A stretch of DNA of 64,000 nucleotides from Ktedonobacteraceae bacterium (GTDB lineage Bacteria > Chloroflexota > Ktedonobacteria > Ktedonobacterales > Ktedonobacteraceae): positions 124,001-188,000 of the forward strand of contig DASRBN010000042.1 of NCBI GenBank assembly GCA_035653615.1, in the 5' to 3' direction. How positions within the stretch are numbered: position 1 is the stretch's first letter; each line of letters starts with the position of its first letter. Shown here one piece after another: positions 1 to 27,905 of the stretch. Position numbers and translations under genes: made by a program. The notes beneath the pieces were generated by a model. It saw nothing but the letters and a program-made list of their open reading frames with translations. It was not told where the DNA came from and ran no database searches.

Positions 1-565
1 CCATCTGTATGCTCCGGTCAAGCAACGCATCGAGGCGGGTGCGCGTCTCTGGAGAAAGACGCTGCAAGGCGTTGGCAAACAGGGCTTGTTCATAGGTCGC
101 GCAGGCGGAGTGTATCAGACGCTCGATACGATCCGCGGTGGGAGGCTCGATCTTGCGTTCACGAAACTCGGTGAGTACCTTGGCTTTGAGATGATCGATA
201 TGCTGATCCCTCGACAAGTGCGTGTTGACGAGCCAGGCAGATATGGCATCGCTATCAGCAGCCGTGGCTTCGCGGAACCCCAACTCCTCTCGGATTTGAG
301 CACGATGCAATTTGATCGTGCGGCCCTCCCAGTCATACTGCTGGAACAAGGCCGCATCCAGTTTCAATTGGTGAGCAAGGTAGTCCACGACGGAGCGGGG
401 GATCTCATATTTCGCATGGGGAAAGCGCCCTTCCAGTTGAAAGCACTTGAGCAGGATGGCGCAGCCCAGGCGCGTTGCGCCAGTCTTATTCGTGAGAATC
501 TTCAGGTCATCTTCCACGAGCGTGAAGTGTTCAATCAATTCTTCAATGTCCCATTGGCGTTTCAT
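1..565 (-). CDS. tnpA: Tn3-family transposase TnpA, N-terminal part (runs off window)
   Basis: The reverse complement is open from an ATG at 565 to the window edge (188 codons). It begins [16 protein letters not shown], the same opening as the full-length TnpA at 19,953, and stays closely similar throughout (for example [49 protein letters not shown]). This is the N-terminal DNA-binding region of Tn3 transposases, which recognises the terminal repeats; the catalytic DDE part would lie off-window. No frameshift is seen in the visible part, so the gene may be intact. Confidence 0.9.
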   Translation of the reverse strand, partial: MKRQWDIEELIEHFTLVEDDLKILTNKTGATRLGCAILLKCFQLEGRFPHAKYEIPRSVVDYLAHQLKLDAALFQQYDWEGRTIKLHRAQIREELGFREATAADSDAISAWLVNTHLSRDQHIDHLKAKVLTEFRERKIEPPTADRIERLIHSACATYEQALFANALQRLSPETRTRLDALLDRSIQM

Positions 566-759
566 CTATCTCTCTCCATTTCTTGAGAAAACTTCCGTGG
601 GGTGGCTCCACAAACGTATTCGTTGCCTTCCAACCCGCATGTACTCTAGTGGGAAGAAACGCCAGAAGACAGGCATAGTGGAAGAGAAAAGGACTTTTTC
701 CTTACTGGTATCCCCTCGGGACAAGATACCTCAGCCAATACTTCATCATCATAGGTATA

Positions 760-807
760 AACTCGTAGCAGATGACAGCATCTGCTACGAGTTTTCTGGC
801 GCGAGTA
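760..807. repeat. Recombinase-site-like array in the partial transposon
   Basis: Perfect 15-bp inverted arms AACTCGTAGCAGATG (760-774) and CATCTGCTACGAGTT (779-793) surround a 4-bp spacer ACAG. A degenerate third copy, TTTCTGGCGCGAGTA (793-807), lies in the same direction as the right arm and shares one base with it. The same three-part layout occurs at both ends of the complete transposon. It is probably a binding site for a tyrosine recombinase of the TnpI type; that function is inferred. Confidence 0.7.
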
Positions 808-891
808 GATATTCCAAGAAATCTGTTTCATTTCCCATAAGAAGCTCGATGAACAAGGGTAAGAGGGAGAAAGCTGTGGATCGAGGAAGAG

Positions 892-931
892 GCTACCTTG
901 CCCCGTATGTCACCGTCGCGCATTTTACCCC
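892..931 (-). repeat. Terminal inverted repeat of partial Tn3-family transposon
   Basis: Read inward from 931 it starts GGGGTAAAATGCGCGACGGT and ends GCAAGGTAGC. It shares the GGGGT start and the ATGCGCGA, TGACAT and GCAAGGTAGC blocks with the terminal repeats at 19,648 and 27,900. Length (about 40 bp) and the GGGG tip are typical of the Tn3 family. Confidence 0.85.
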
Positions 932-19642: not shown

Positions 19643-19647
19643 AAATA
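19643..19647. repeat. Target-site duplication AAATA, left copy
   Basis: The five bases immediately outside the left terminal repeat, AAATA, are repeated exactly outside the right terminal repeat (27,901-27,905). A 5-bp duplication is the hallmark of Tn3-family insertion and shows that both ends belong to one event. Confidence 0.92.
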
Positions 19648-19687
19648 GGGGTGATATGCGCGAAGCTGACATATAGTGCAAGGTAGC
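19648..19687 (+). repeat. Left terminal inverted repeat of the complete transposon
   Basis: Starts GGGGTGATATGCGCGAAGCT. The first 25 bases match the right end perfectly; over 40 bp only three positions differ. Confidence 0.95.
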
Positions 19688-19770
19688 CGCCTGTTTGCTT
19701 CCAATATCATCAAGAACAAACACCGCTGCGGTCCCCTCTCATCTGCTTCTTTCCGCATTGCGACCATATA

Positions 19771-19818
19771 AACTTGCAACAGAAAACTCGCAGCAGAAAG
19801 TGCTTTCTGCTGCGAGTT
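19771..19818. repeat. Recombinase-site array near the left end (tnpA side)
   Basis: Three 15-bp copies: AACTTGCAACAGAAA (19,771-19,785), AACTCGCAGCAGAAA (19,785-19,799) and, inverted, TTTCTGCTGCGAGTT (19,804-19,818), with spacer GTGC. The inverted pair extends outward into a perfect 20-bp-armed palindrome (19,781-19,822). An inverted core plus direct accessory copies is how TnpI recombinase sites are built in Tn4430-type transposons. It may also control tnpA, which begins 131 bp downstream of the extended palindrome. Confidence 0.75.
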
Positions 19819-19952
19819 TTCTCTGCCCCCCTTCATCCCAGAAGAGGTCTTCGCGAATCACTAGCATAAAAGTCCTCTCTTTCCTCACTTCTTGCGCGTC
19901 TTTCACGTTTGCTCTGATGAGAGAGAAAGAAGAACTGGAGAGCTGAAGACCC

Positions 19953-22952
19953 ATGAAACGCCAATGGGACATTGAAGAACTGATTGAACACTTTACCCTG
20001 ATTGCTGAGGATCTGGAATTCCTGGCCAACAAGACGGGCCCGACTCGTCTGGGCTGTGCGCTCTTGCTCAAATGCTTTCAATATGAAGGGCGTTTTCCTC
20101 CTGCCAAGCAGGATATTCCCCGCTCTGTCGTAGACTATGTGGCGCATCAACTCAAGCTCGATGCGGCCCTGTATACCCAGTATGACTGGGAGGGCCGCAC
20201 CGTGAAAGGCCACCGCACACAGATTCGCGAACATCTCGGGTTCCGGGAAGCCACCAACTCCGATACCGAGGAGATGACCACTTGGCTTGTTACCCACATC
20301 CTGGCCTCTGATCAACACCTGGAGCATCTCAAGGTGGTCGTGACCAAGCGCTTTCGCGAACTCAAGATCGAGCCGCCCACGACGGACCGCATCGAACGGC
20401 TGATTCGCTCCGGGTGTTACACCTATGAGCAGCAGTTGTTTGCCGAGATCATGCAGCGGTTGCCATCGTCCACCTGCACCTTGCTCGACGACTTGCTGGC
20501 GCGCAGTGTGGCCGTGGCCGAACAGGAAGAACAGGCTCAGGATGATGAACCGCCACCCGCCACAGCAGAGACACGGCGGGCTCCTGTCACCTGGCAGGAC
20601 TTAAAAACTAGCCCTGGAGCAGTGGGATTGGAAAGTGTGCTGCATGAAATTGACAAGCTGCGCATCCTCTTGCAACTCGCTCTCCCCGCCGATCTTTTTG
20701 GACAAGTCTCCCCGAAAGTGATCACCCTCTACCGGCAACGAGCGGCGACGGAAACACTCTATGAACTCCGCCGCCACCCGGATGCGACGCGCTATACACT
20801 TCTGGCCGCCTTTTGCCTGCAGCGAACGGGAGAAGTGACCGATAGCTTGGTCGATCTCTTGCTGCTGGTCATCCGCCGCATTGGGGCCAAGGCCGAAAAG
20901 CACGTCAAGAAGCAGTACCTCGATGAGATCCAAACAGTAGAGGGCAAGCAGCGGTTGCTCCGCCAGGTCGCTGAAGCAGCCCTAGCGGGGCCAGAGAAGA
21001 CCATCCGGGCAGGCATTTATCCCGTGATGAGCGAGGAGAAATGCAAAGCCATTCTCAAGGAATACCAGGCAAAGGGCGAGTATCAGGAACAGGTCTACCA
21101 GCGCATGCGCGCCTCCTACCGCGATCATTACCGGCGCATGGTGCCGCTGTTAGTCAACATGCTCGATGTGCGTTCCAACAACACGGCGCACCGTCCTGTC
21201 GTCGATGCGCTCACCCTGGTGAAACGCTATGCGGGGACGCCTGGTGTCTATTATCCGGTTGACGAAACGGTTCCCATTACGGGGGTGGTGCGCCCGATGT
21301 GGCGCGACCTGGTGCTGGAAAAAGACAAGGAGGGCGAGCAGCGGGTGAACCGCGTCAACTACGAACTCTGTGTGCTGGATGCGCTCCAGGAGAAGCTGCG
21401 CTCTCGCGAGTTATGGGTGGTCGGGGCCAATAAATACCGCAATCCCGATGATGACTTGCCCAAGGACTTCGACGACAAGCGCACGGAGTACTACCAGGCG
21501 CTCGGGCAACCGGAAAAGGCCGAGGAGTTTATCACCGCCCTGCGCCAGCAGATGATCGAGGCGCTGACCTCCCTTGACCGGGCTCTGCCCAGGCTCTCCT
21601 CTCAGGTGCGCATCCTCGATAAGAAGGGCGGCTGGATCAGCCTGACCCCGCTGGCTCCCCAACCGGAGCCGCAGAACCTGCGCCGCCTCAAGGCCGAAAT
21701 TACCAAACGCTGGGGCGTGACCTCGCTGTTGGATATTCTCAAGGAGGCAGAGTTGCGCATCGGCTTCACGAAGCACTTCAAAAGCCCTGCGGTGCGTGAG
21801 GTGCTTGAGCGGGAGGTCCTGCAGAAACGCTTGCTGTTGTGTCTCTACGGAATGGGGACCAATACTGGTCTCAAGCGCATCAGTCAGGGCGAGCATGGGC
21901 AAAGCTACAACGAGTTGATCTACACCCGCCGACGCTACATCCACCAGGAACATTTGCGGGCCGCCATTATCGACGTGGCGAACGCCATTTTTCAGGTACG
22001 CCAGCCCCACATCTGGGGAGAAGGCACGACAACCTGTGCCTCGGACTCCACACAGTTTGGGGCCTGGGATCAAAACTTGATGACCGAGTGGCACTTGCGG
22101 TACGGGGGCAAAGGGGTGATGATCTACTGGCACGTCGAAAAGCATGCCACCTGTATCTACTCCCAGCTCAAGACCTGTTCATCTTCCGAGGTGGCGGCGA
22201 TGATCAAAGGCGTGTTGCGGCACTGCACGCAGATGAAGGTTGAAAAGCAGTTTGTGGATACCCACGGGCAGAACGAGGTGGCCTTCGGATTCTGCCATCT
22301 GTTGGGTTTTCAGCTCATGCCCCGCCTCAAAAACATCTATGCCCAGAAGCTCGCTCGTCCGGTGAGCGGGGACGCGGACGCCTATCCCAATCTGCAGCTC
22401 ATTCTCAGCCGTCCCATCGACTGGGACCTGATCAAGGAACAGTACGACCAGATGATCAAATACGCGACCGCCCTGCGACTGGGAACAGCGGAGACAGAGG
22501 CGATCTTGCGCCGCTTTACGCAAACCGAATTACAGCATCCCACCTATCGGGCTTTTGCCGAACTGGGCCGGGCCATCAAAACGATTTTCCTCTGTCAGTA
22601 TTTACAATCAGAGGCGCTGCGCCGGGAGATTCACGAGGGCCTCAATGTCATCGAGAACTGGAACGGGGCCAATAGCTTTATTTTTTATGGACACAGCGGG
22701 GATTTCGCAACCAATCGCCTCGATGAGCAAGAGCTGGCCGCCCTCTCGCTTCACCTGTTGCAAATTTGCCTCGTCTACGTGAATACCTTGCTGATTCAGC
22801 GTGTGCTGGCAGAACCACAGCAGCTCCAGCGGATGAAGAAAGAGGACTTGCGAGCGCTCACGCCACTTATCTATAGTCACGTGACTCCCTATGGGCTGTT
22901 TCGCTTAGACCTCACGGAACGGATGAGGATCGAGGAAGAAGCATCAGCGTGA
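19953..22952 (+). CDS. tnpA: Tn3-family transposase TnpA
   Basis: A 999-residue replicative transposase that cuts at the transposon ends and joins them to the target, forming cointegrates. The length is standard for the family. The catalytic DDE triad is visible: D698 ([14 protein letters not shown]), D769 ([14 protein letters not shown]) and E901 (VIENWNGAN), almost the same positions as in Tn3 itself. The N-terminal part (1-150) matches the partial TnpA at the left edge. Start ATG 19,953 is shared with that relative. No frameshift or stop is seen. Confidence 0.96.
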
Positions 22953-23172
22953 GCAAACAAAGGAGCGACGGGAGGTATTGGAGAGAAAGGGTGAGTGAGA
23001 GGAGCAGCTGTCAAAGCTTGCAGTGGGAAGAGTTGGGCAAGGAGAGAACAATTCGTCGTAAATTGAAAATGCCTGATGGCAGAGTCAAAGTTTTTCCCCT
23101 CTGATCATGTCTACGTAAATAGGAGGGTAAGTTGAGGCTTTGGCAATTGGATCTTTAAAAAGGAGAGCAGAA

Positions 23173-23784
23173 ATGCGTGGCTCCGAAAAGCCCCCATTTC
23201 CATCCGATAGTATATCTTTATCGGAGGCTGTGGAACGTGCAAGGGCAAACGCGGAAGACATCGGTGCTTTCGCACGTATTTATTATGAGTTTAATGCAAC
23301 AATAAAAAGGTATTTATCGACGTATCTGAAAAAGGAAGATTTGGAAGATGTTTGTCAAGAGACATGGATACGTGCGTGGAGGGCTTTATCGAAACAGAAA
23401 CCAGAAGTCTTGCATATGAGGGCCTGGCTGATAGCGATAGCGCATAATACTTATGTGGATTATGTAAAAGAACGGCAGCATAACAATGTCCCTATTGATC
23501 AGGTAAATGAGGTGGAAGAACACTTATCGCTCGATTCCCTTATTCGGAGCGGGCCCGAGGAGGAGGTATGTGAAGGGGATTTGCTAGATCAAGCATTAGC
23601 ACAGTTGGCGCGAAAGCGCCCACAAGGCTATCGCTGCATGGAATTGTTCAGGGATGGTTACAAGCAAAACGAGATCGCCAAAATACTCAATATCACAGAG
23701 GGGACAGTTAGCCTGAATATTAGGCGTTGCCAAGAGGAACTTCGTAGCATTTTACAGTCTCTAGAAGGAGGAAAGGCTCGATGA
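23173..23784 (+). CDS. ECF-family RNA polymerase sigma factor
   Basis: A 203-residue sigma-70-family factor. Region 2 (IYYEFNATIKRYLSTYLKKEDLEDVCQETWIRAWRALS) recognises the -10 element, and C-terminal region 4 (GYKQNEIAKILNITEGTVSLNIRRCQEEL) recognises the -35 element; sigma-3 is missing, as in ECF factors. ATG 23,173 follows AAGGAGAGCAGAA; an earlier TTG frame start is less likely. The stop overlaps the anti-sigma start by four bases (ATGA), so the two are translationally coupled. Codon use is AT-richer than in tnpA. Confidence 0.9.
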   Translation: MRGSEKPPFPSDSISLSEAVERARANAEDIGAFARIYYEFNATIKRYLSTYLKKEDLEDVCQETWIRAWRALSKQKPEVLHMRAWLIAIAHNTYVDYVKERQHNNVPIDQVNEVEEHLSLDSLIRSGPEEEVCEGDLLDQALAQLARKRPQGYRCMELFRDGYKQNEIAKILNITEGTVSLNIRRCQEELRSILQSLEGGKAR

Positions 23785-24389
23785 AAGAGCCAATGAACAT
23801 ACCCACACCATGTGTAGAGTACGCAGACATGCTCGTAGTTCCTCTGGATCAACTTTCGGCTTCCGATCAGGCAGTTCTTGAAGCTCACATAGAGACTTGT
23901 CCAGGATGCTCATCTGCCTATAAGGACTACCAAAGAATATGGGATCTCATGCGGACACTACCACCACCTGATTTTTCCGCGCCACTTCCGTCAAGGTTAG
24001 TAGCATTGTGGGAGCAGGAAGGGTATATCACAGAGGACCCCACTCAAAAACCAAGTATTGGAAAGCGCTTCTTCAATGGCATAAAAAAGGTAGGTGTTGT
24101 TATCGCCGTAGCTGGTATAGGCATCGTGGCTCTAGGTATTAAAGCGGAACTCGCCTCCCGTCGGAATCTTCAATCTGAAGCCCGTCCTACTACAGATCGT
24201 CCTGGCTCATTTCTCCCAACTCATCATCAGCCAGTGGCGTCTACACATATAACTAATGTGCATCAGTCAGCGGCTGACCAGGGCAATTACGTGGTTGATT
24301 GGGGTCGGCTGGCATCTCAGCAGCGCCAGGTTGTGGCGGATATGGAACGTCAGGCCGGTCTGAGACATGTTGAGCGCAGCAGGAGGTAA
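23781..24389 (+). CDS. Zinc-finger anti-sigma factor, membrane-anchored
   Basis: A 202-residue partner of the ECF factor just upstream. Residues 36-43 form the zinc-binding H-x3-C-x2-C motif (HIETCPGC) of cytoplasmic anti-sigma domains. One membrane helix follows (about 103-121), then an extracytoplasmic tail of about 80 residues with no recognised domain, which would sense a signal or be cleaved. The usual logic is that it holds the sigma factor inactive until released. The gene overlap with the sigma factor supports a cognate pair. Confidence 0.85.
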   Translation: MKEPMNIPTPCVEYADMLVVPLDQLSASDQAVLEAHIETCPGCSSAYKDYQRIWDLMRTLPPPDFSAPLPSRLVALWEQEGYITEDPTQKPSIGKRFFNGIKKVGVVIAVAGIGIVALGIKAELASRRNLQSEARPTTDRPGSFLPTHHQPVASTHITNVHQSAADQGNYVVDWGRLASQQRQVVADMERQAGLRHVERSRR

Positions 24390-24497
24390 CCAGTAGGCTA
24401 CTCATTTGTGAAGTAATTGGTTTGAGGCTTCTTTTCTCTGCTCTAGACTTACGGCGTTCATTCATCGATTCTGTTTTTTATAGAAGGGAAGGCAATT

Positions 24498-26630
24498 ATG
24501 GTTAGTGAAGTCAATCAACGCTTTTTAAACTCCTACGTCCTTTTAGAGGAGATAGGGCGTGGCGGATTTGGAGTTGTCCGTAAAGCTCATCATACTATCT
24601 TCAATCGCGCCTGTGCAATCAAGTTTTTTCGCGCTTGGGACGAGTATGATAAAAACTTCTTTCTTAATGAAGCAAAAATGCACGTGCAACTTCAGCATCC
24701 TTATATTCTTCCCATTATAGATGCTGGTATTGACGATAATGGGTCACCATACCTCATTACCCTCTATGCTCCGGGGGGATCCTTGCGGGACCTCATTGAG
24801 CGCCGAACTTTAAATCCCTTGAAATTTGAAGATGCTTTAGCTATCCTTTTTCAAATTGGTGAGGCTCTTCACTACACTCATCAGCAGGAAATTGTGCATC
24901 GTGATCTCAAACCGGAGAATATCCTCTTCGATGAAAAAGGGAATGCCCTTCTTGCGGATTTTGGAATCGCAATGCAATTAAAAGACCTTATAACCACCCA
25001 CCCTGAATTTGTTGCTGGAACACGCGCATATATGGCACCAGAAGTGTTTGATGGCGAGTTTAGTACGAAAAGTGATCAGTATGCGTTGGCATGCATCGCC
25101 TTTGAACTCCTTACCGGACAAAAGCCATTCAACCTTCCCCCCAATGCTTCCAGCGATCTCTGGATAGCTTGGAAGCAGGTCCATAATGAAACGGTACCCA
25201 CTTCTCTGGGAGAGTTACGTCCTGAACTGCCCGCATATATACAGAGGGCCGTGCATATCGCCCTTTCAAAAAAGCATATTGACCGTTATGTAGATGTTGC
25301 AGCTTTTATGGCTGCTCTTAAGAATATCGATGGGCAAAGTACCATCCTTGATCCACACATGCCGGAGAGAAATGGGCAGATCGCTTCAGTAGGGGTATCT
25401 CCTGAAGAGGAGGTGACTCCTCTCGTCAAAAAGGCGATCGAGGAACTGGGGCATCCCAAATATGCTGTGAGAAAACAAGCCGTTGAGAAATTAGCACAGT
25501 CATCGCGGCGATCTCCTGCTGCACATGAGGTTTTGCTAAAAGGTCTGGATGATCCCCTGCTACCAGATGTACGAGTGTACTGCGCCCTCGCACTTTCTAA
25601 CGACCCCCGCGCTGTCTTAGGATTAGCTGAAGCATTGCGCTTCAGGCCTCCAACTCTCAAGGAAAAGATCAAAGTGGTGGGTGGTCTTCCACCTGACCCG
25701 ACAATCCGAATCAAAGCAGAAGCAGCATTATTAAAGTTGCGAGAAACGGCGATACCGATCCTACTTGGTGCCTTGAAGGACCAAGATAAGCAGATACGTA
25801 TTAACGCTGCTACAGCTTTAGCACTCTTTAGGGATAAAGCTACAACGCCTGGCTTACTGACAGCACTCATAGAAGATTCTAAGGTAGAGGTACGCCGTGA
25901 AGCCGCAAAGGCTCTAAAAGGGATTGGAGACCGTACAGCCGTAATAAGCCTGTTTAGAGCTTTGCATGACGTAGACGGAGAGGTTCGGATCACGGTTATT
26001 GAAACGTTGGGAAATACTGGAGATGTCAAGGTAATACCAAATTTACTTGAGGTACTATCTGATCTGGACGAGGAGGTGCGTAATGCGGTGAGCGATGTTC
26101 TCATAAAGTTTGGAAAGAAAGCGGTGTCAGGCTTACTCGAAGTGCTACATAGTAAGCCTTTTGCAAAAGCAAGAGCAGCCAAAGTGCTAGGGATAATCGG
26201 GGACCCGACAGCAGTTCCGGAGTTACTTACAGCATTGGATAATCAAGGTGATAAAGTGTTGCGCCGTGAGGCGGCTGTAGCTCTTGGACGAATCGGGGGA
26301 GATGAAGCAATATCAGGATTGCTTGGAGCATTACACGATCAAGAGTCATTTGTTCGGCAGGCAGCGGCTACAGCTTTGGGAAGAATTAAGAATCCGACAA
26401 CAATTCCGAATTTGAGTGCAGCTCTCCTTGAAAACCCGTATTCGTATGACGTCCAGCGAGCTATTATTGGAGCTTTAGAAAACTTTGAGAACCCCAGAGC
26501 TGCAATACCAGACTTGCAAAGAGCTTTGCACAAAGGTGACTTAGTGAAGGATGTGAAATCTAGAGCTGCCAGATTGCTCAGGCAGTTGGATGCACTTCCG
26601 CTGCTTTATCGATGGCTATATCGTGAATAA
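24498..26630 (+). CDS. Ser/Thr protein kinase fused to HEAT-like repeats
   Basis: A 710-residue protein. Residues 13-275 form a Hanks-type kinase with every key motif: glycine loop GRGGFGVV, K42, HRDLKPEN with catalytic D136, DFG (154-156) and APE (180-182). Residues about 305-700 are tandem HEAT/PBS-lyase-type helical repeats (units such as VRREAAKALKGIGD), a protein-binding solenoid. No membrane helix is visible, unlike most PknB-type kinases, so it should be cytoplasmic. It follows the sigma/anti-sigma pair, possibly in one unit, and may phosphorylate one of them; that is inference. Confidence 0.9.
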   Translation: MVSEVNQRFLNSYVLLEEIGRGGFGVVRKAHHTIFNRACAIKFFRAWDEYDKNFFLNEAKMHVQLQHPYILPIIDAGIDDNGSPYLITLYAPGGSLRDLIERRTLNPLKFEDALAILFQIGEALHYTHQQEIVHRDLKPENILFDEKGNALLADFGIAMQLKDLITTHPEFVAGTRAYMAPEVFDGEFSTKSDQYALACIAFELLTGQKPFNLPPNASSDLWIAWKQVHNETVPTSLGELRPELPAYIQRAVHIALSKKHIDRYVDVAAFMAALKNIDGQSTILDPHMPERNGQIASVGVSPEEEVTPLVKKAIEELGHPKYAVRKQAVEKLAQSSRRSPAAHEVLLKGLDDPLLPDVRVYCALALSNDPRAVLGLAEALRFRPPTLKEKIKVVGGLPPDPTIRIKAEAALLKLRETAIPILLGALKDQDKQIRINAATALALFRDKATTPGLLTALIEDSKVEVRREAAKALKGIGDRTAVISLFRALHDVDGEVRITVIETLGNTGDVKVIPNLLEVLSDLDEEVRNAVSDVLIKFGKKAVSGLLEVLHSKPFAKARAAKVLGIIGDPTAVPELLTALDNQGDKVLRREAAVALGRIGGDEAISGLLGALHDQESFVRQAAATALGRIKNPTTIPNLSAALLENPYSYDVQRAIIGALENFENPRAAIPDLQRALHKGDLVKDVKSRAARLLRQLDALPLLYRWLYRE

Positions 26631-26648
26631 GCAATCGCATTCAAGCAT

Positions 26649-27602
26649 TCATCCCTTCATCAATCGGAGCTTGTCTTTCACCTGAGCACGGCTGACCTGG
26701 GTATACCTGACGGTGGTTTGGATAGCAGGGGTTCCTTTCATGGTCACATGTCCCAGATAATAGGCGACCTCTTCGAGTGTCCATCCGGCCTCCCTTGCTC
26801 GATGCGCAAAATCGTGGCGCAGATCATGAAAGGAGAGATCAGCGATGAGTTCCCACTCCTCCTTATTGGCCTGCCGTTTGAGGGTGCGGAACCAATGGTG
26901 AATGCCGTCTTCCGACAGACGCGGACTTCGCTGCGAGGTGAAGACGTAGAGGCTCTCTGGATCGCGACCACCGTGCTGGATGTACTCATAGAGAGGACGC
27001 CGAGCTTCATTGAGCAGATCTATGTCGCGGAACTTTTCTCCCTTGTGTCCCACATGGAGCCAGCCAATCTTTGGACCCACATGGGTATGCTCTATAAGTA
27101 AATACGCGACATCACTCACGCGGCAGCCTGCCCAATAGCCCAACGCAAACAGCGCCTTGCCGCGCATGTCGTCGGCTTTCTCGACCAGGTTGCGCAGCAC
27201 AAAGCGTTGATCTGGTGAAAGAATACGAGGGGCGAGCGTCTGCTGTGCTTTGATTTCGATGCCGCTGGTCGGATTGCGCGTGAGGGCTTCTTTCTCATCG
27301 ATAAGCCACTGGCAGAAGTGTTTGATCACCGACTTGACCCGTGTACGATGGCTGACACTATACTTGTGTTCTTTCAGCAAGGAGAGATAAGCTTCCACCA
27401 CTGTAGCAGTGAGCTGGTCAGGCTGAAAGTGTTTGCTATGCCCGGGCCGCCTGGCAACCCATGCGGTAAATTGACGCAAAATGCGCGTGTAGGCATCAAT
27501 GGTCGCTTCGTCGTGCTTGCTGAGACAGGCCTGCTGATAGCTCAGAATCCACGCTTCATTTCCGGCATCGGGAAAAGGAACGATGTTTGACGGCTCCGTC
27601 AT
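26649..27602 (-). CDS. Transposon-borne tyrosine recombinase (TnpI-like)
   Basis: A 317-residue tyrosine recombinase with an N-terminal core-binding domain (about 15-105) and a complete catalytic set: R161 (GCRVSDVAYL), K190 or K187, H259-x-x-R262 (HDLRH), H285 (YLGH) and Y300. It converges on the kinase gene with 18 bp between stops. It begins just inside the right-end site array (27,628-27,776), so it is the obvious candidate to act there, resolving cointegrates made by TnpA. Most Tn3-family elements use a serine resolvase; tyrosine types form a minority (TnpI, TnpS/T). Confidence 0.92.
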   Translation of the reverse strand: MTEPSNIVPFPDAGNEAWILSYQQACLSKHDEATIDAYTRILRQFTAWVARRPGHSKHFQPDQLTATVVEAYLSLLKEHKYSVSHRTRVKSVIKHFCQWLIDEKEALTRNPTSGIEIKAQQTLAPRILSPDQRFVLRNLVEKADDMRGKALFALGYWAGCRVSDVAYLLIEHTHVGPKIGWLHVGHKGEKFRDIDLLNEARRPLYEYIQHGGRDPESLYVFTSQRSPRLSEDGIHHWFRTLKRQANKEEWELIADLSFHDLRHDFAHRAREAGWTLEEVAYYLGHVTMKGTPAIQTTVRYTQVSRAQVKDKLRLMKG

Positions 27603-27627
27603 TTGTTGTCATTTCCTCCTGGAAAAT

Positions 27628-27776
27628 TTTCTGCTGCGAGTTTTGCATCCTCATTTAGTGGCATTGCGGAACGCTCTCATGTCTCCCTGAGCATGAGCCG
27701 ATCGACTCAGACAGATCCATCCATCAGGAACTCGTAGCAGAAAGCATCTTCTGCTGCGACTTTTCTGCTACGAGTT
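27628..27776. repeat. Recombinase-site array near the right end (recombinase side)
   Basis: Four 15-bp copies. AACTCGTAGCAGAAA (27,729-27,743) and, inverted, CTTCTGCTGCGACTT (27,748-27,762) flank spacer GCAT. TTTCTGCTACGAGTT (27,762-27,776) abuts on the outside with one shared base. A lone TTTCTGCTGCGAGTT lies at 27,628-27,642, immediately upstream of the recombinase gene. One inverted core plus two direct copies equals the count in the Tn4430 resolution site. It is the mirror image of the array at 19,771-19,818. Confidence 0.75.
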
Positions 27777-27860
27777 AGTCTAGCAGCAATGGGTCCAAAA
27801 TGCAAGCGAGATGCAGTGCGGTGAGAAAGGTAGAGGATATTGTTATAGAAGAGCTACAGA

Positions 27861-27900
27861 GCTACTTTGCACTTCATGTCAGCTTCGCGCATATCACCCC
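27861..27900 (-). repeat. Right terminal inverted repeat of the complete transposon
   Basis: Read inward from 27,900 it starts GGGGTGATATGCGCGAAGCT, identical to the left end for 25 bases, then three mismatches to position 40. Confidence 0.95.
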
Positions 27901-27905
27901 AAATA
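27901..27905. repeat. Target-site duplication AAATA, right copy
   Basis: Exact copy of 19,643-19,647 directly outside the right terminal repeat. Confidence 0.92.

Follow-up and report, generated by a model that had tools for sequence, protein, structure and literature searches.

A Tn3-family transposon of Ktedonobacteraceae with a TnpI-like recombinase at its far end and a predicted recombinase array at each end

The locus studied here, a transposon whose transposase gene and tyrosine recombinase gene sit at opposite ends and face each other, raises the question of how such an element would resolve its cointegrates, and at which site or sites. The window is the 64,000-nucleotide stretch G000:C42:124001-188000, on contig C42 of a 6.59-Mb genome. 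We judge it probable (roughly 75%) that the element is a Tn3-family unit transposon of a TnpI-like variant, in which the recombinase resolves cointegrates at two sites per element.

Boundaries, genes and relatives of the element

Window positions 19648-27900 hold an intact 8,253-bp Tn3-family element (element A). Specifically, its 40-bp terminal inverted repeats (left, 19648..19687, plus strand; right, 27861..27900, minus strand) match at 37 of 40 positions, with 3 mismatches, and have the length (~38-40 bp) and GGGG tips of Tn3-family repeats; a pattern describing these ends matches 3 sites in the window, where shuffles give an expectation of 0.00. The 5-bp target duplication of the family is present as AAATA on both sides (19643..19647 and 27901..27905). 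None of the five main genes (tnpA, ECF sigma factor, anti-sigma factor, HEAT kinase, and tyrosine recombinase) has an interrupted reading frame. The exact ends and intact genes claimed in the preliminary description therefore stand, as does the layout that it called unusual.

The tnpA gene (19953..22952, plus strand) encodes a 999-aa protein, within the size class of the ~1,000-aa DDE transposases of the family, that scores 904 bits against the NCBIfam Tn3 model (cut-off 500). Its proposed catalytic residues, D698/D769/E901, fall in line with D679/D751/E881 of Tn4430 TnpA in an alignment read by eye (Tn4430 numbering from PMC9579193), bearing out the preliminary assignment. Convergent with tnpA at the other end is the gene for a 317-aa tyrosine recombinase (26649..27602, minus strand), TnpI-like by sequence comparison. 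Between them, all on the plus strand, lie genes for an ECF-type sigma factor (23140..23784), a probable anti-sigma factor of the zinc-finger HC2 type (23781..24389), and a Ser/Thr protein kinase with HEAT repeats (24498..26630). The kinase has no match at E <= 1e-100 among the 28 other genomes of Ktedonobacteraceae; a role as a defence gene was considered and rejected, PADLOC having returned generic kinase and HEAT matches only. We conclude that element A is a real, intact Tn3-family transposon with a TnpI-like predicted resolvase at its far end.

Two diverged elements of the same layout, B and C, which the preliminary description had not recorded, lie within 38 kb upstream of A. Element B (C42:115777-124931) is reversed, and its tnpA end, likewise new, occupies window positions 1..931 (minus strand; terminal repeat at 892-931, array core at 761-792), the remainder lying outside the window; element C spans C42:105878-113143. 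Identity to A is 83% (B) and 76% (C) for the recombinase, and 78% and 67%, respectively, for TnpA. Element B is flanked by ATGGA/ATGAA and element C, whose left tip is worn, by ATGAA/TACGA; of the three, A alone has a perfect target duplication. A broader end pattern found exactly five good ends in the genome, all on C42 and all derived from A, B, and C (reversed control, 0), and at its threshold no solo ends or miniature derivatives appeared in the genome. All three copies fall within 46 kb of one contig (G000:C42:105878-151900) despite their mutual divergence, which argues against simple local hopping as the origin of the cluster.

Relatives of element A are present in other genera of the family. 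With the own genome included, 9 of 29 genomes of Ktedonobacteraceae have a recombinase match (E <= 1e-60) and 11 of 29 a TnpA match (E <= 1e-100), some of these matches not being complete elements; in a draw of 400 Chloroflexota genomes, family included, one of the ten matching genomes lies outside Ktedonobacteraceae. One record among the relatives is named, a Ktedonobacterales MAG (DAIDJF010000128.1). The relative G014a (~17.2 kb) has the convergent layout of A and a 5-bp duplication, TTGAT; its tnpA-side terminal repeat is split by an insertion with a large serine recombinase gene (L077:17143-18849). In G003, a close relative, tnpA is interrupted at a contig break, and the insertion there reads as IS21-like. 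A 37-kb candidate in G014, in which a single contig carries widely separated tnpA and recombinase genes, is not claimed as one intact element, its recombinase-side outer end being missing. The layout thus recurs with related terminal repeats and different cargo; the preliminary description had proposed a search for copies with the same gene order. The same genes in the same order without terminal repeats, the finding that it had named as fatal, were not encountered among relatives. An empty site, which it had proposed as a check, did not emerge: in relatives the joined flanks were matched only in part, and no match extended across the site.

A TnpA tree, built from sequences other than the Tn4430 and Tn5401 transposases, and a recombinase tree group the same elements with moderate to strong support. 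The agreement of the two trees lends no support to an exchange of the recombinase in the G014/G007 lineage, which its lower identity had suggested. Outside Ktedonobacteraceae, relatives of the recombinase are either stand-alone plasmid genes, 57-64% identical, on Nostoc, Bacillus, and Paenibacillus plasmids, or part of a colinear tyr>tnpA> transposon in Rubrobacter. Palindromic cores lie near the three plasmid recombinase genes that were checked (Bacillus, L095:7283-7314; Paenibacillus, L096:7871-7902; Nostoc, L093:3000-3031), in the Bacillus case ~660 nt upstream of the gene; their similarity suggests a shared plasmid-resolution module.

When the DNA of A is compared pairwise with that of B, C, and G003, homology is confined to tnpA and to the recombinase together with its end; the region separating them shows none, and its boundaries fall within ~20 bases of the two stop codons. 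The cargo between tnpA and recombinase is unrelated in each element compared (lipase-like protein in B, WD40 protein in C, NACHT ATPase in G003) and has a GC fraction of 0.45-0.48, versus 0.51-0.57 for the module genes. The NACHT ATPase of G003 is 681 aa long (L042:2409-4454), and its matches to defence models are weak.

Recombinase arrays at both ends

Each end of element A contains a subterminal array of putative recombinase sites, a feature absent from the preliminary description. At the tnpA end, a direct half-site (ACTTGCAACAGA; 19772..19783, plus strand) precedes a core (19786..19817) whose two 12-bp arms form a perfect inverted repeat around an 8-bp spacer, AAGTGCTT (19798-19805). At the recombinase end, a core (27730..27761; inward-read spacer AGATGCTT) is accompanied by a direct half-site (ACTCGTAGCAGA; 27764..27775, minus strand), and a further half-site lies just upstream of the recombinase start (27628..27641, minus strand). 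An inward recombinase promoter, TTGCAT-N17-TAGACT (27777..27805, minus strand), is predicted by consensus match.

The same end module, comprising terminal repeat, direct half-site, and a 12-8-12 core ~139 nt from the tip, is present at every end examined. Among 17 ends chosen for their adjoining tnpA or recombinase genes, all 17 carry an array, and none of 300 dinucleotide shuffles per end scored as well. The half-site is constantly 14 nt ahead of the core at all 17. Four of the 17 lack a usable tip; in 12 of the 13 with an uninterrupted tip the core starts at nt 136-140, the exception being the tnpA end of C (nt 116). Within the window, 13 occurrences of the half-site pattern compare with an expectation of 1.6; ten of them belong to the arrays of A and B. 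A promoter-like hexamer pair, 17 nt apart, lies just outside the array at 13 of 17 ends; this 17-spaced promoter is absent at the tnpA ends of A, B, and C. Half-sites at the two ends of one element resemble each other more closely than under most permuted pairings, of which 3 in 120 do equally well, a comparison over five elements that is statistically weak. A tyrosine recombinase, a core of inverted arms, and direct half-sites, the combination that marks the TnpI group, are thus all recognisable in the sequence, and site-specific activity of the recombinase is predicted.

The spacers, read inward and given as recombinase end/tnpA end, are AGATGCTT/AAGTGCTT in A, AGGTACCT/TGCTGTCA in B, AAGTAGTT/AAATGACA in C, TACGTGGT/TACTGAGA in G014a, TACGTGGT/TACTTGAA in G014b, and AGATGCTT/AGATGCTT, equal, in G003. 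Five of the six elements, A, B, C, G014a, and G014b, accordingly have a left spacer unlike the right one, with mismatches at 2-4 of the 6 central positions. Because tyrosine recombinases generally require both overlaps to have the same sequence, inversion of the element on itself is expected to be disfavoured in these five.

Proposed resolution at two sites and its alternatives

We propose that TnpA pastes and copies the element into new targets, which would yield cointegrates, and that the recombinase would resolve them by crossover between two left cores or two right cores. Left cores are expected to be identical to each other in the daughter copies of a cointegrate, as are right cores, so either pair could resolve it; ready self-inversion would not be expected with unlike left and right spacers in one element. 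Recombinase bound to the arrays probably represses its own promoter, and also that of tnpA where a promoter has been kept. The space between the convergent stop codons would serve as the cargo slot, occupied in A by the sigma/anti-sigma/kinase trio.

The second array could instead be something other than a resolution site: the recombinase-end array would be the sole resolution site, while the tnpA-end array, never recombining, would act as an operator or assist the binding of TnpA. Tn5401, where one full irs is supplemented by one TnpI half-site close to either end (PMC7157771), offers a precedent, and at 13 of 17 ends the array and the predicted promoter start overlap. Yet the core at the tnpA end is complete and includes a spacer, unlike a lone half-site, in A and B its arms form a perfect 12-bp inverted repeat even though no promoter is recognisable there, and the ends of G003 resemble the product of a crossover at a tnpA-end core. 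We regard an operator-only role as possible but rather unlikely. That two sites serve to make the interior invertible, switching the gene that faces the promoter-bearing end, seems highly improbable to us: the two cores of one element are indeed inverted relative to each other, and in A, B, and C the 17-spaced promoter is at the recombinase end only, but the spacers mismatch in five of six elements and A, B, and C all have the same orientation relative to the promoter. There is likewise little to recommend viewing the recombinase as a plasmid-type multimer-resolution gene carried as cargo and unconnected with transposition. The stand-alone plasmid relatives, with core-like palindromes beside the gene in three of three checked, invite that view; against it, both transposon ends carry recombinase arrays at a near-constant distance from the tip, the recombinase and TnpA trees agree, and in Rubrobacter a Tn3-family transposase gene has a 62% identical relative immediately upstream. 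Resolution at two sites per element remains our preferred reading.

Two-site resolution would also permit occasional crossovers between a left core and a right core of different elements, which can be expected to swap whole ends. The two ends of G003, which are on different contigs and constitute a single case, are as expected after such an end-to-end crossover, which should leave the outer ends alike, a discontinuity at the core, and flanks that do not match. In particular, they differ at 5 of the first 166 nt (97% identity as far as the core), divergence sets in at the inner arm of the core, and their flanking 5-mers, AAGTT and TACCT, are unmatched. The same pattern could also arise by gene conversion that extends to the point where homology ends. 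More speculatively, ends may be exchangeable modules: site-specific crossover between the left core of one element and the right core of another would swap terminal repeats, promoters, and flanks while tnpA, cargo, and recombinase are kept, and the resolvase would drive transposon evolution beyond the clean-up of cointegrates. We hold this wider idea to be doubtful, if worth stating.

Comparison with known systems

The preliminary description knew of no Tn3 element with this layout. In its simple form that claim is too strong. In Tn4651 and Tn4652, tnpA and the tnpS/tnpT recombination genes are reportedly at opposite ends with cargo between, an opposite-end placement that A shares, together with a tyrosine recombinase as resolvase, a role predicted in A. 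A plasmid element of Nostoc sp. NIES-3756 (L112:6723-10741; 4,019 bp, near-identical ends) has convergent tnpA> <tyr genes and a TnpA 56% identical to that of A, but differs in having no cargo and a short recombinase ~30% alike over 111 residues; a palindromic site was looked for at its ends and none was found. The Tn4651 group further differs in that it requires a helper, TnpT, with the rst site between divergent tnpS and tnpT (PMC7157771); neither TnpT nor rst is seen in A, and the gene list and annotation contain no divergent partner gene beside its recombinase.

In a published set of 190 Tn3-family elements, TnpI is found in Tn4430, Tn5401, and TnBth4 only (PMC7157771). Element A resembles Tn4430 in its DDE transposase with three aligned residues, its tyrosine recombinase as predicted resolvase, and its core of inverted arms with direct half-sites. 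In Tn4430, tnpI and tnpA are adjacent and colinear, with one irs beside tnpI and no known cargo (PMC7157771), whereas in A the two genes converge from opposite ends and enclose the cargo, and both ends carry an array; the adjacent, colinear tnpI and tnpA and single irs upstream of tnpI that otherwise characterise the TnpI group are not found in A. Tn5401 and TnBth4 have a TnpI resolvase, the counterpart of that predicted in A, and Tn5401 also has, besides its irs, a TnpI half-site near each end; they differ in having colinear tnpI>tnpA> genes, one full irs, only half-sites at the ends, and toxin-antitoxin cargo outside both genes (PMC7157771). For Tn5401 it is established that TnpI binds its site and represses or modulates tnpI and tnpA (PMC7157771). 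The Rubrobacter radiotolerans plasmid transposon (L094) has a recombinase 62% identical to that of A adjoining a Tn3-family transposase, but its tyr> tnpA> genes are adjacent and colinear and its TnpA is very distant in the tree.

What survives of the novelty claim is the full layout with two arrays: in the open-access literature, to which our search was confined, we found no description of a full recombinase array at both ends. The architecture makes testable why two sites are kept, whether spacer mismatch guards against self-inversion, and whether transposons are reshaped by the exchange of ends. Its basic machinery is already known, and the new part seems to be the TnpI-like recombinase at the far end together with a complete array at each end; the group, found mainly in Ktedonobacteraceae, would represent a second TnpI-like architecture, in which both ends carry sites and the cargo slot is cleanly delimited.
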